Shown here: positions 3,415 through 10,403 of the stretch, in pieces | Position numbering within the stretch: the stretch's first letter is position 1 | Layout of the letters: each line of letters opens with the position of its first letter | Source: Chloroflexota bacterium | GTDB taxonomy: Bacteria; Chloroflexota; Chloroflexia; Chloroflexales; Herpetosiphonaceae | Direction: 5' to 3' | Assembly: GCA_020161265.1 (NCBI GenBank) | Contig: JAIUOC010000010.1 | Span: 186,001-250,000, forward strand | Length of the DNA: 64,000 nt | Notes under the pieces: generated by a model | Told to the model about the DNA's origin: nothing | Seen by the model: the letters and a program-made list of their open reading frames with translations, nothing else | Databases searched by the model: none | Made by a program: the position numbers and the translations under genes

Positions 3415-3485
3415 TGATTAACTAACCTTTCTATTGTCGCCGCAGATCTATCACCGCGAGCTTAAAAAACGAGTTTCTTGGTCAT

Positions 3486-4052
3486 CTAGACTCGCAGCAA
3501 GCCGCGAAATCCGCGTGCGGCATAGTACGATTCGGCTCCATTGTGATAGACAAACACCTGGTTGTAGCGGCAATCGCCAAAAATTGCCCCACCAAGGGCG
3601 CGAATTTCGGCTGGGGTTTGCAACCAACTTGATGTTTTGGTATCAAATGCGCCGAGCGTTTGCAAAACTCGGTAATCGGCCTCGCTGAGCAATTCAATGC
3701 CCATTGCCGCTGCTATATCGAGGGCATTGCCGGTTGGTTTATGCTCTTTGCGAGCTTCCCAACTCGCCCGATCGTAGCACAGGCTGCGCCGACCTTTGGG
3801 ACTTTCAGCAGCACAATCGAAAAATAGATATTGATTGGTTTGCGGATTATAGCCAACCACATCTGGCTCGCCGCCAGTCCGTTCCATTTCGTTGAGCGAC
3901 CAAAGTTTGGCTGGCTGCACTATGAGTTTGGACTGAACCTCTGTCCACTGCAAGCCAGCATGGCGCTGCATATTCTGCTCAAACCGCACCAATAAGCTGG
4001 TCATCAGGTCATCGGATTGTTCAGGCGATAAGACTTCTAATGGATTATTCAT
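3486..4052 (-). CDS. DUF4256 family protein
   Basis: 188 residues, typical length for this uncharacterised cytosolic family. Recognisable family segments are WSLNEMERTGGEPDVVGYN, CAAESPKGRRSLCYDRASWEARKEHKP and GGAIFGDCRYNQVFVYHNGAESYYAARGFRG. No catalytic function is established. GGAGGTG lies upstream of the ATG at 4052. Monocistronic. Confidence 0.85.
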   Translation of the reverse strand: MNNPLEVLSPEQSDDLMTSLLVRFEQNMQRHAGLQWTEVQSKLIVQPAKLWSLNEMERTGGEPDVVGYNPQTNQYLFFDCAAESPKGRRSLCYDRASWEARKEHKPTGNALDIAAAMGIELLSEADYRVLQTLGAFDTKTSSWLQTPAEIRALGGAIFGDCRYNQVFVYHNGAESYYAARGFRGLLRV

Positions 4053-4239
4053 ATCGATCGCACCTCCGCTTAACTGCTTGGTGTGAATGAATAGGCATCA
4101 AATTAACTTGGCTAAATTTGCATCTAGCTAGCGTGCTAGTATAGCAGAAATTCGGCATTTGCTAGCGATTTAGGCCAGAATAACCCGATTGTGCTATCAT
4201 GCTGGCTGAGCGTTTGTTCTCAAATTGTGAGTTTAACCT

Positions 4240-4674
4240 ATGCCTGTTTTAATTCAATTAACCACTGCCGACCATGGCGGGCGGGTAGCCACTGGCAAAT
4301 GTGGCACTGCCGAATGTGGCGTGAGTTGCAATTGTGGTTGCCCATATACTGCGATGGAAAGTCGTGGACGCACCGAAGCAATTGAAATCATCGAAGCCCA
4401 ATATCCCAATCAATGGCTCGGTTTAGTCATTCCACCTGAAGAAGATGAGTTTACGCCTGAGCGAGCCATGTTAGTAGCCCATTCGCACGATGATAACGAA
4501 GTCTGGGATGCGATGAGCCGTGTGACCCATAACCAAGTGGTGCATGTCTATTTTAATGGTCAATACAACGCTGATTATGTCGATTGGGCTGATAGTCAAC
4601 CCGCCAGTTATGGCAGTCGCTTGACCCAAGCCTCACCCTTCGGCGGCGAGATGATTAGCCTGATGCCACTATGA
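4240..4674 (+). CDS. Hypothetical protein with Cys cluster, upstream of lipB
   Basis: 144 residues, not recognised as a named family. Residues about 21-35 contain five cysteines (KCGTAECGVSCNCGCP), which could bind a metal or cluster. The middle (IEAQYPNQWLGLVIPPEEDEFTPERAMLVAHS) looks like a small alpha/beta domain seen in hypothetical proteins of filamentous phototrophs and their relatives. Its stop overlaps the lipB start (ATGA at 4671-4674), so the two are translationally coupled. A link to lipoate or Fe-S metabolism is only an inference from position. Confidence 0.65.
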   Translation: MPVLIQLTTADHGGRVATGKCGTAECGVSCNCGCPYTAMESRGRTEAIEIIEAQYPNQWLGLVIPPEEDEFTPERAMLVAHSHDDNEVWDAMSRVTHNQVVHVYFNGQYNADYVDWADSQPASYGSRLTQASPFGGEMISLMPL

Positions 4675-7703: not shown

Positions 7704-8642
7704 TTATTTACGTCGAAAGGTATATTCGATGCCCTGTTGCAGCGTGCTGTAAGTCACGACGCTGCGCAAATCGAGGCCAACGCTGACGATCGTTTGGGCA
7801 ATTTCGGGGCGCAAACCCGTCAATACCATTCGCGCACCGAGCAATTGAATCGCTTGCGAGGTTTGCACCAGCAACGATGCCACATAGGTATCGAGCACGG
7901 GCACACCAGTAATATCAAGAATCACAAAATCGGCGCGATATTTGCCGACACCAGTTAATAACGCCTCGGTCATCCGTTGTGCACGCTGCTGATCGAGCGC
8001 CCCAATCAATGGAACCACCAAGACCTGATCATTTAAAGGAATCAGCGGGGTTGAAAGCTCATCGAGCAACGCTTGTTGCAAGCCGATCAACTCGTTTTGC
8101 AAGCGCTCCCGCTCGCGAATATCCTGTTGATGGATGCGAATTTCTTGGCGCAATTTGAGTTCGGTCATCAACAATTCAGCAAATTCATGCAAAATATCCA
8201 GTTCATCAGCCGTCCAAACCCGTGGCTTGCCATCGATTACACAGAACGAGCCAAGCACATGGCCACCGCTGCGAATCGGCATGCCCGCGTAGCTAATCAC
8301 GCCTAAATCGGGGATAGCCAAATTATCGTGAACTAAGGGATGTTCGCGGGCATCGGTCACAATTAATTCTTGGCCATTACTGACCACATGTTGGCAAAAT
8401 GAATGGGTTAACGGCGTTTCGCGGCGCTCAGCCCATGGCTCAGCCAACCCAATATGGCTTTTAAAATATTGGCGATGATGTTCAACGAGCGAAAGTAACG
8501 ACACTGGTGCTTGCAAAACTTTACTTGCTAAGCGGGTCAAACGATCAAAAGCTGGGTCGAAAGAAACATCAAGTAGCCCAAGCTCTTGCAATGTCTCGGT
8601 TCGTTCAGCATTGTTCAGCTGTGATCCTGATCCTGAGGACAT
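7704..8642 (-). CDS. GAF-STAS domain regulatory protein
   Basis: 312 residues. Residues about 15-170 form a GAF domain (APVSLLSLVEHHRQYFKSHIGL, FCQHVVSNGQELIVTDAREHPLV, GSFCVIDGKPRVWT). A short coiled-coil (about 170-200) leads to a C-terminal STAS domain (VLVVPLIGALDQQRAQRMTEAL, FVILDITGVPVLDTYVAS). This is the RsbR-type layout of stressosome co-antagonists or anti-anti-sigma sensors; there is no kinase domain. The ATG at 8642 is preferred because upstream codons are non-ATG. Signal sensed and partner are unknown. Confidence 0.85.
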   Translation of the reverse strand: MSSGSGSQLNNAERTETLQELGLLDVSFDPAFDRLTRLASKVLQAPVSLLSLVEHHRQYFKSHIGLAEPWAERRETPLTHSFCQHVVSNGQELIVTDAREHPLVHDNLAIPDLGVISYAGMPIRSGGHVLGSFCVIDGKPRVWTADELDILHEFAELLMTELKLRQEIRIHQQDIRERERLQNELIGLQQALLDELSTPLIPLNDQVLVVPLIGALDQQRAQRMTEALLTGVGKYRADFVILDITGVPVLDTYVASLLVQTSQAIQLLGARMVLTGLRPEIAQTIVSVGLDLRSVVTYSTLQQGIEYTFRRK

Positions 8643-8774
8643 ATGCCAGACTCTCCACAATAAAAGCGTTATTAAAAACAGTACCAGAGTTATTAATATT
8701 CCACAATTGCCGAGATAGGGTAACCATGTGGGGGAAAAACCGAAGGATGAATTATGAAGGATGAGGGATGAAGA

Positions 8775-9046
8775 TCATTTTTAACCACGAAGGACACGAA
8801 GGGCACGAATATTGGGTTGGTTGGCAACCTGGAATATCGTTAAGCAACCATGTACCTAACCTTGACGCTCTTCGTGGTTTCGTTCTTCGTGGATTACGCT
8901 GTAAGGCAGAGGTGCAGGGCGGATTTAGGATTCAGGGGCCAGCGATCAGGAGTAAATGCACAAATATAGGAATGAAAACCCTTCGCGTTCTTCGTGGTTC
9001 CGTTCTTTATGATCTTCGTTTCTTCGTGGTTCCGTTCTTGGGGCTA
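8775..9046. repeat. Region of dispersed 'cttcgtgg' repeats
   Basis: Non-coding stretch between the GAF-STAS gene and the selW-like gene. It holds several related short words: ACCACGAAGGACACGAAGG near 8777, CTTCGTGGTTTCGTTCTTCG near 8871, and CTTCGTGGTTCCGTTC near 8991 and 9024, in both orientations. The same words occur in the 126-bp repeats at 13374 and 15292. Open frames here are accidents of the repeats. Confidence 0.7.
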
Positions 9047-9062
9047 CGGATCGGGCTATAAT
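9035..9062 (+). promoter_or_regulatory. Possible promoter of the selW-like gene
   Basis: TATAAT at 9057-9062 with a weak -35 (TTCTTG, 9035-9040) at 16 bp spacing, 35 bp upstream of the start codon at 9097. Confidence 0.45.
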
Positions 9063-9096
9063 GAATGTATCGATTTATTGATTAAGGAGTTGATCG

Positions 9097-9342
9097 ATGC
9101 AAATCACCATTACTTTTTGCATGTATTGAAACTACACCCCGCGTGCTGTCAGTTTGGCAGCCCAACTGTTGGAAATTCATCGGCAAGCGATTCAGCAATT
9201 GAGCTTGATTCCGGCCAAGGGTGGTTGTTTTGAAGTTGAAGTTAATGGGCAACTGCTCTATAGCAAACTGCAAACCGAACGCCACGCCGAAACTGGCGAA
9301 ATTGAAGGATTAATTGCGGCCTATCTCGACCAGCAAGCCTAA
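9097..9342 (+). CDS. SelW/Rdx-family protein, probable selenoprotein (UGA = Sec11)
   Basis: Read from the ATG at 9097 (AAGGAG seven bases upstream) the frame is MQITITFCMY, then TGA at 9127-9129, then NYTPRAVSLAAQLLE and on to a TAA at 9340-9342: 81 residues if the TGA is read. The TGA falls exactly where the Rdx family (SelW, SelT, SelH and bacterial relatives) has the second redox residue of its CxxU or CxxC motif, giving Cys8-Met-Tyr-Sec11. The rest fits the thioredoxin-like fold: beta strand, helix, then GGCFEVEVNGQLLYSK and a C-terminal helix. A small hairpin follows the TGA at 9145-9161. Ordinary annotation would cut this gene to a 10-residue peptide or start it late. The alternative, a single nonsense mutation, would have to hit this one codon by chance. 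No sel genes are in the window. Confidence 0.85.
9145..9161 (+). promoter_or_regulatory. Candidate bacterial SECIS hairpin
   Basis: Stem GCTGTC/GGCAGC (6 bp, one G-U) closing the loop AGTTT. The loop starts 21 nt after the UGA, inside the coding region, where bacterial SECIS elements lie. It has a G among the first two loop bases, as in the known bacterial consensus. The stem is short, so confidence is moderate. Confidence 0.55.
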
Positions 9343-9351
9343 AACGCTCCT

Positions 9352-9383
9352 GCCAGCCCATATGCGGCGTGCAGTGGGCTGGC
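9352..9383 (+). terminator. Hairpin downstream of the selW-like gene
   Basis: Stem GCCAGCCCA/TGGGCTGGC (9 bp) with a 14-nt loop, ten bases after the TAA. There is no U-tract, so it may be a weak terminator or a processing or stability element. Confidence 0.4.
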
Positions 9384-9449
9384 CCATTCCACATAGCCAA
9401 ATCCGCATGCTATAATCGCAGCCACGACATACTAATCAAGGAGTCTCCC

Positions 9450-10403
9450 GTGTTGGTTTTGATCACAGGTTCCAGTGGGCAGATTGGCACCAATTTGGCG
9501 CTACGCCTTCTCGCAGATGGCCATGAAGTGTTTGGGGTTGATCAACGGGTCAATACGTGGACAAAAGCCTTTGAGTATGTGATTCAGGATCTTGGTGCAC
9601 CCTACCGCGATTTCCAAGGCGGCATCGGCGGCGTGCCCTATCCCAAGCCTGATGTTGTGGTACATTTGGCGGCCAATGCCAAAGTTCACGAACTAGTAAC
9701 CTACCCTCATCGAGCGTTGGAAAATGTGATGACCACCTACAACGTATTGGAATACTGTCGCCATCAACAAGTTCCAATCATTTTTAGCTCATCACGCGAA
9801 GTCTATGGTGATATTCATCGCTACTTAACCGAAGAAGCCCAAGCCGATTTTGTCTATACCGAAAGCCCCTATTCGGCCTCAAAAATCAGCGGCGAAGCAT
9901 TTATCTATTCCTATGCCCGATGTTACAACTTGCCCTATTTGGTATTTCGTTTCTCAAATGTCTATGGGCGCTACGATAATGACATCGAACGGATGGAGCG
10001 GGTAATTCCCTTGTTCATTCGCCGCATGCGCGACGGCCAACCTGTGACCGTCTTTGGGCGTGAAAAAACCCTCGATTTCACCTATGTCGATGATTGTGTC
10101 GATGGCATTGTGCGCGGAATCGAGCGGATTGTCAGTGGCCAAGTTGCCAATCAGACCTTTAATTTAGCCTATGGTGAAGGCAATACCTTGGTTCGTATGG
10201 CCGAATTGATCGCCGAGGCTCTGCAAATTGAAGCAACGATTAACGTGCAACCGTCAAAACTCGCTGGTGAAGTGACCTACTATGTGGCCAACATCGGGCG
10301 AGCACGCCAACTCTTGGGTTACACGCCCCAAGTTGCTTTAGCCGATGGTTTACGGCGAGCAGTCGCGTGGAACATTGCGTGGGATGAGGAACAGCGGCGA
10401 TGA
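9450..10403 (+). CDS. NAD-dependent epimerase/dehydratase (extended SDR)
   Basis: 317 residues from a GTG start at 9450, chosen because AAGGAG lies six bases upstream and the Rossmann strand begins immediately (VLITGSSGQIGTNLA, the GxxGxxG NAD motif). YSASK supplies the catalytic Tyr and Lys, and Ser residues of IIFSSSREVYG complete the triad. This is the UDP-glucose 4-epimerase/dTDP-glucose dehydratase type of sugar-nucleotide enzyme; exact reaction unknown. It overlaps the sensor kinase by four bases (ATGA). Confidence 0.85.
   Translation: MLVLITGSSGQIGTNLALRLLADGHEVFGVDQRVNTWTKAFEYVIQDLGAPYRDFQGGIGGVPYPKPDVVVHLAANAKVHELVTYPHRALENVMTTYNVLEYCRHQQVPIIFSSSREVYGDIHRYLTEEAQADFVYTESPYSASKISGEAFIYSYARCYNLPYLVFRFSNVYGRYDNDIERMERVIPLFIRRMRDGQPVTVFGREKTLDFTYVDDCVDGIVRGIERIVSGQVANQTFNLAYGEGNTLVRMAELIAEALQIEATINVQPSKLAGEVTYYVANIGRARQLLGYTPQVALADGLRRAVAWNIAWDEEQRR

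Follow-up and report, generated by a model that had tools for sequence, protein, structure and literature searches.

A small gene of a Herpetosiphon species (Chloroflexota), situated in the 64,000-nucleotide stretch of DNA analysed here (the window), almost certainly encodes a SelW-like (Rdx) selenoprotein, in which an in-frame UGA would be decoded as selenocysteine (Sec) by SelB and tRNA-Sec under the direction of a SECIS hairpin. Once the TGA is translated as Sec, the frame reads MQITITFCMY-U-NYTPRAVSLAAQ..., its complete product being MQITITFCMYUNYTPRAVSLAAQLLEIHRQAIQQLSLIPAKGGCFEVEVNGQLLYSKLQTERHAETGEIEGLIAAYLDQQA. A preliminary description of this DNA had reported a frame preceded by a good ribosome site, with a UGA after MQITITFCMY and a length of 81 residues, and both the translation and the AGGAG motif bear this out; all of its sequence details for the gene and the hairpin were correct. 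The observations consist of the frame, the conservation of the TGA, the genes of the Sec machinery, the covarying hairpin and the predicted fold and, on these genomic grounds, the protein is very probably made and its residue 11 is very probably Sec. The coordinates of the features are collected in Table 1.

Table 1. Features of the SelW-like gene (positions in the window) and Sec machinery genes of the same genome (contig:positions).
Feature	Position	Strand	Remarks
SelW-like gene (predicted)	9097..9342	+	81 residues, then TAA; single in-frame TGA
Ribosome binding site AGGAG	9085..9089	+	7 nt upstream of ATG (sequence)
Cys8 codon, Cys of CxxU	9118..9120	+	invariant across 41 aligned homologues
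In-frame TGA, predicted Sec, residue 11	9127..9129	+	retained as TGA throughout Herpetosiphon and in relatives of the Sec form; Cys forms have TGC/TGT
Predicted bacterial SECIS hairpin GCUGUCA-GUU-UGGCAGC	9145..9161	+	loop starts 22 nt after TGA; folding, covariation, conservation
selB	C2:249563-251419		319 bits
selA	C5:278387-279703		536 bits
selD	C1:1039964-1040896		381 bits
tRNA-Sec	C8:406153-406245		above Rfam cut-off; ARAGORN anticodon TCA (UCA)

According to its sequence and its modelled structure, the predicted gene product is a SelW-like protein of the Rdx family with a thioredoxin-like fold. It matches Pfam Rdx (PF10262) over residues 2-73 with an E value of 1.2e-17 (64.3 bits for a cut-off of 22.6) and the SelT/SelW/SelH subfamily model TIGR02174 with 54.2 bits (cut-off 34.2), both belonging to a family for which curated NCBI models exist; with 78.4 bits it stays below the 88-bit cut-off of the NCBIfam equivalog NF041051 (SelTWH_Campy), and is not filed under this narrower model. 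Both columns of the C8-x-x-U11 motif are invariant (C/U) across 41 homologues. The AlphaFold2 model, built with these 41 homologues in the alignment (pLDDT 94), predicts a strand at residues 2-8 followed by a helix at residues 14-27, so placing CxxU in an N-terminal strand-loop-helix. The model resembles the bacterial SelW-related proteins of PDB entries 2fa8, 2obk, 2p0g and 3dex (TM ~0.9, sequence E values from 1e-5 to 7e-8, identity ~25-29%), the best match being 2fa8 with a TM of 0.90, and the next structural matches are MIEN1 and mouse SelW (TM ~0.7). Mammalian SelW (PDB 2npb) belongs to the same fold family (TM 0.69) with a weak sequence match (E 0.72), and, according to PMC8508763, similarly carries CxxU; the eukaryotic SECIS is of another type than the bacterial one (PMC13188914).

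SelW-like selenoproteins are abundant in bacteria (PMC1088965, PMC2398784), where such Sec proteins have long been known (PMC1088965, PMC1794560, PMC2398784). Known since about 2005, they gain in the present gene a further member which is ordinary in kind and common in Chloroflexota. It does not differ in kind from the bacterial SelW-like family (Rdx, PF10262; TIGR02174), with which it shares the length, the position of CxxU between the first strand and the first helix, the GGxFEV motif, the fold and a predicted SECIS located just 3' of the UGA. At the level of single residues, the Herpetosiphon protein exhibits Cys44 in GGCFEV, where most relatives possess Arg or Val and only 4 of the 41 aligned sequences possess Cys. 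With respect to function, the C8/U11 pair would form a thiol/selenol redox centre able to close a reversible S-Se bridge (selenenylsulfide), and this CxxU centre may exchange with either a partner protein or a low-molecular-weight thiol. The literature searched yielded no substrate for any bacterial SelW-like member and no study of SelW in Herpetosiphon.

Nor does the gene neighbourhood fix any substrate. In the window, selW is located between a GAF-STAS protein gene, upstream on the opposite strand, and an NAD-dependent epimerase gene downstream, which also follows selW in the sister genus. In contrast, the next gene in six more distant Chloroflexota looks, by eye, like that of a tryptophanyl-tRNA synthetase (KKGRVFSGARPTGRQHLGNYLGAI...). 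Ahead of selW, the intergenic DNA at 8783-9039 carries CTTCGTGGTT / AACCACGAAG repeats in either orientation, and a 20-nt form, TTCTTCGTGGTTCCGTTCTT, occurs there in three copies (with at most 3 mismatches) and nowhere else in the window.

Each of the six Herpetosiphon genomes searched has retained the TGA-containing frame. Of 400 Chloroflexota genomes searched, 180 contain matches and 118, among the matches listed, contain the TGA form. A full selA match accompanies the TGA form in 117 of these 118 genomes, and the remaining one, which is 77% complete, contains a weak selA match only; the non-TGA form occurs alone in 25 of the genomes listed, and 5 of these lack selA. The resulting association gives a Fisher P of 1e-12, a value which ignores phylogeny and has to be read with selA itself being common (~320/400 genomes). 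The preliminary description had expected a Cys at position 11 of the Cys homologues, and such a residue was indeed found, encoded by TGC or TGT, in each of the 18 non-TGA homologues read. The region 3' of the hairpin is under purifying selection (pN 0.03, pS 0.32), with a pN/pS ratio of ~0.1. Frame decay around the TGA, which had been named as a sign against a Sec codon, was seen in none of the related species; a single copy with an apparent loss of the N-terminus was discarded as an example of decay, this truncated copy running into the end of its contig.

These data bear directly on the possibility that the TGA is a nonsense mutation in a recent pseudogene. Standard gene calling would indeed stop after 10 residues, and the list of open reading frames does not contain any such frame, in agreement with the earlier statement that ordinary annotation would lose or truncate the gene. 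However, the retention of the TGA and its frame in the six Herpetosiphon genomes and in more than 100 other Chloroflexota, along with the low pN/pS ratio after the hairpin, makes a pseudogene practically inconceivable, and this interpretation is already refuted because both the TGA and the downstream frame are conserved.

The host is a Herpetosiphon species: the 6.04 Mb genome that contains the window groups with close relatives in the same genus, and related loci of 90-96% identity occur in Herpetosiphon aurantiacus, giganteus, llansteffanensis and geysericola. The organism had been proposed to be a Sec user, a proposal to be checked by looking for selA, selB, selD and tRNA-Sec(UCA) across the genome, and all four are present. 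In addition, selD (3432-4490 of locus L057) exhibits its own in-frame TGA in a CAGU motif (...ELASCAGUAAKMGAG...), the usual Sec site of this protein, and the SelD of the host is thus probably also a selenoprotein. No in-frame stop was found in the formate dehydrogenase-like, AhpC-TSA (peroxiredoxin), CMD and thioredoxin family members of the genome and, among the redox families tested, SelW and SelD are the only predicted Sec proteins of Herpetosiphon. Two other candidates for selB were rejected as short matches at contig ends, one of which, close to tRNA-Sec, looks like the beginning of tuf instead of selB. The tRNA-Sec gene lies a short distance ahead of this tuf gene, which is interrupted by the end of contig C8 (locus L054, 3654-3750 and ~4010-4172), and contig C6 stops a little beyond its tRNA-Tyr and tRNA-Thr genes with a short match similar to that of C8, which suggests that both contig ends are assembly breaks at a duplicated tuf.

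That the UGA would be read through in another way, by a near-cognate tRNA or as Trp or Cys, deserves consideration in so far as the inserted residue cannot be shown from sequence alone. Against such a readthrough, however, the genome possesses a dedicated tRNA-Sec(UCA) together with selA, selB and selD, the TGA occurs solely at the position of CxxU that elsewhere is occupied by Cys, the TGA forms listed occur only along with selA (in one case a weak match), and they are accompanied by a SECIS hairpin that is mostly missing in the Cys forms. Readthrough of this kind is accordingly given a very low probability, and decoding of the UGA as Sec, which had been proposed from the outset, finds support in the machinery genes, the conservation of the TGA, the Sec/Cys exchange and the covarying hairpin.

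Bacterial SECIS elements, as modelled in a 2026 review (PMC13188914), consist of a 4-16 bp stem with an apical loop of 3-9 nt located 16-37 nt from the UGA, with a G among the two opening nucleotides of the loop, frequently with G or U next in line, and a minimum free energy of -7.5 kcal/mol or lower. A hairpin with an AGUUU loop had been noticed at the usual distance, and the structure, which starts 15 nt after the UGA, fits every one of these constraints: RNA folding also closes the A-U pair to give a loop GUU on a 7-bp stem, with a spacing of 22 nt and an energy of -8.6 kcal/mol when folded alone (centroid). Compared to shuffled sequences its folding energy is ordinary (z 0.18) and uninformative alone, and a search of Rfam at a loose threshold over 8600-9500 gave no match. 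The case for the hairpin rests on comparison, because the single Herpetosiphon sequence is unremarkable when set against random synonymous recoding (P 0.07, a marginal value). Among 21 distinct relatives with the same register, three pairs have changed on both sides (12 cells), and the covariation score reaches 0.299 vs 0.163 in shuffles, a value equalled in none of 500 shuffles and exceeding all slid registers, although these sequences were picked for sharing the register, which leans towards structure, and their relatedness inflates the shuffle and joint probabilities. In five Herpetosiphon orthologues, third positions vary at 0 of 13 hairpin codons vs 24 of 67 elsewhere (Fisher P 0.008), with a pS of 0 in the hairpin vs ~0.3 elsewhere. 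A rule-based scan accepts all 47 distinct Sec-form sequences and only 2 of the 18 Cys forms, the joint Fisher value assuming independence and not to be taken literally.

A conserved hairpin could also be a mere by-product of codon choice in a stretch whose amino acids, RAVSLA, are conserved, and in this respect both the conservation of the motif and the 7% of recoding trials that equal the hairpin score have to be acknowledged. Nevertheless, the paired changes preserve the stem (UA/CG/UG, CG/UA/GC and GC/AU), the third positions are frozen in the hairpin only and the hairpin is mostly absent from the Cys homologues, all of which renders a by-product highly improbable. On this conservation and covariation evidence, the predicted hairpin is very probably a genuine SECIS. 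SelB, loaded with Sec-tRNA and GTP, would bind this hairpin, whose loop carries the G-U signature, when the ribosome arrives at the UGA, and Sec would then be inserted.

Depending on the lineage, the Chloroflexota selW hairpins, located 13-36 nt after the TGA, display two registers ~5 nt apart, both with compensatory changes. The loop follows the UGA at 21-22 nt in Herpetosiphon and in some further members of the phylum, whereas in another group (family f13 and some others) a stem CCGGGC-CGUGA-GCCUGG, formed by the same codons, places the loop at 17-18 nt. Covariation in the 17-18 nt register is weaker but present (score 0.208 vs 0.156, with 3 of 500 shuffles as high). The SECIS hairpin appears to have shifted by ~5 nt between lineages inside the conserved peptide RAVSLA. 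The wider proposal, in which the SECIS would have moved ~5 nt between lineages with the family and the codons unchanged and SelW and SelD may be the only proteins for which Herpetosiphon uses its Sec machinery, has about an even chance of being right.

The present analysis puts right the annotation of a small gene missed by standard gene calling, and its genomic evidence that Herpetosiphon uses Sec is firm. The two SECIS registers represent a natural test of the tolerance of SelB for the position of the hairpin. If SelW and SelD were truly the only selenoproteins, Herpetosiphon would offer a simple setting for the function of bacterial SelW, because the loss of selA would then mainly affect these two proteins.
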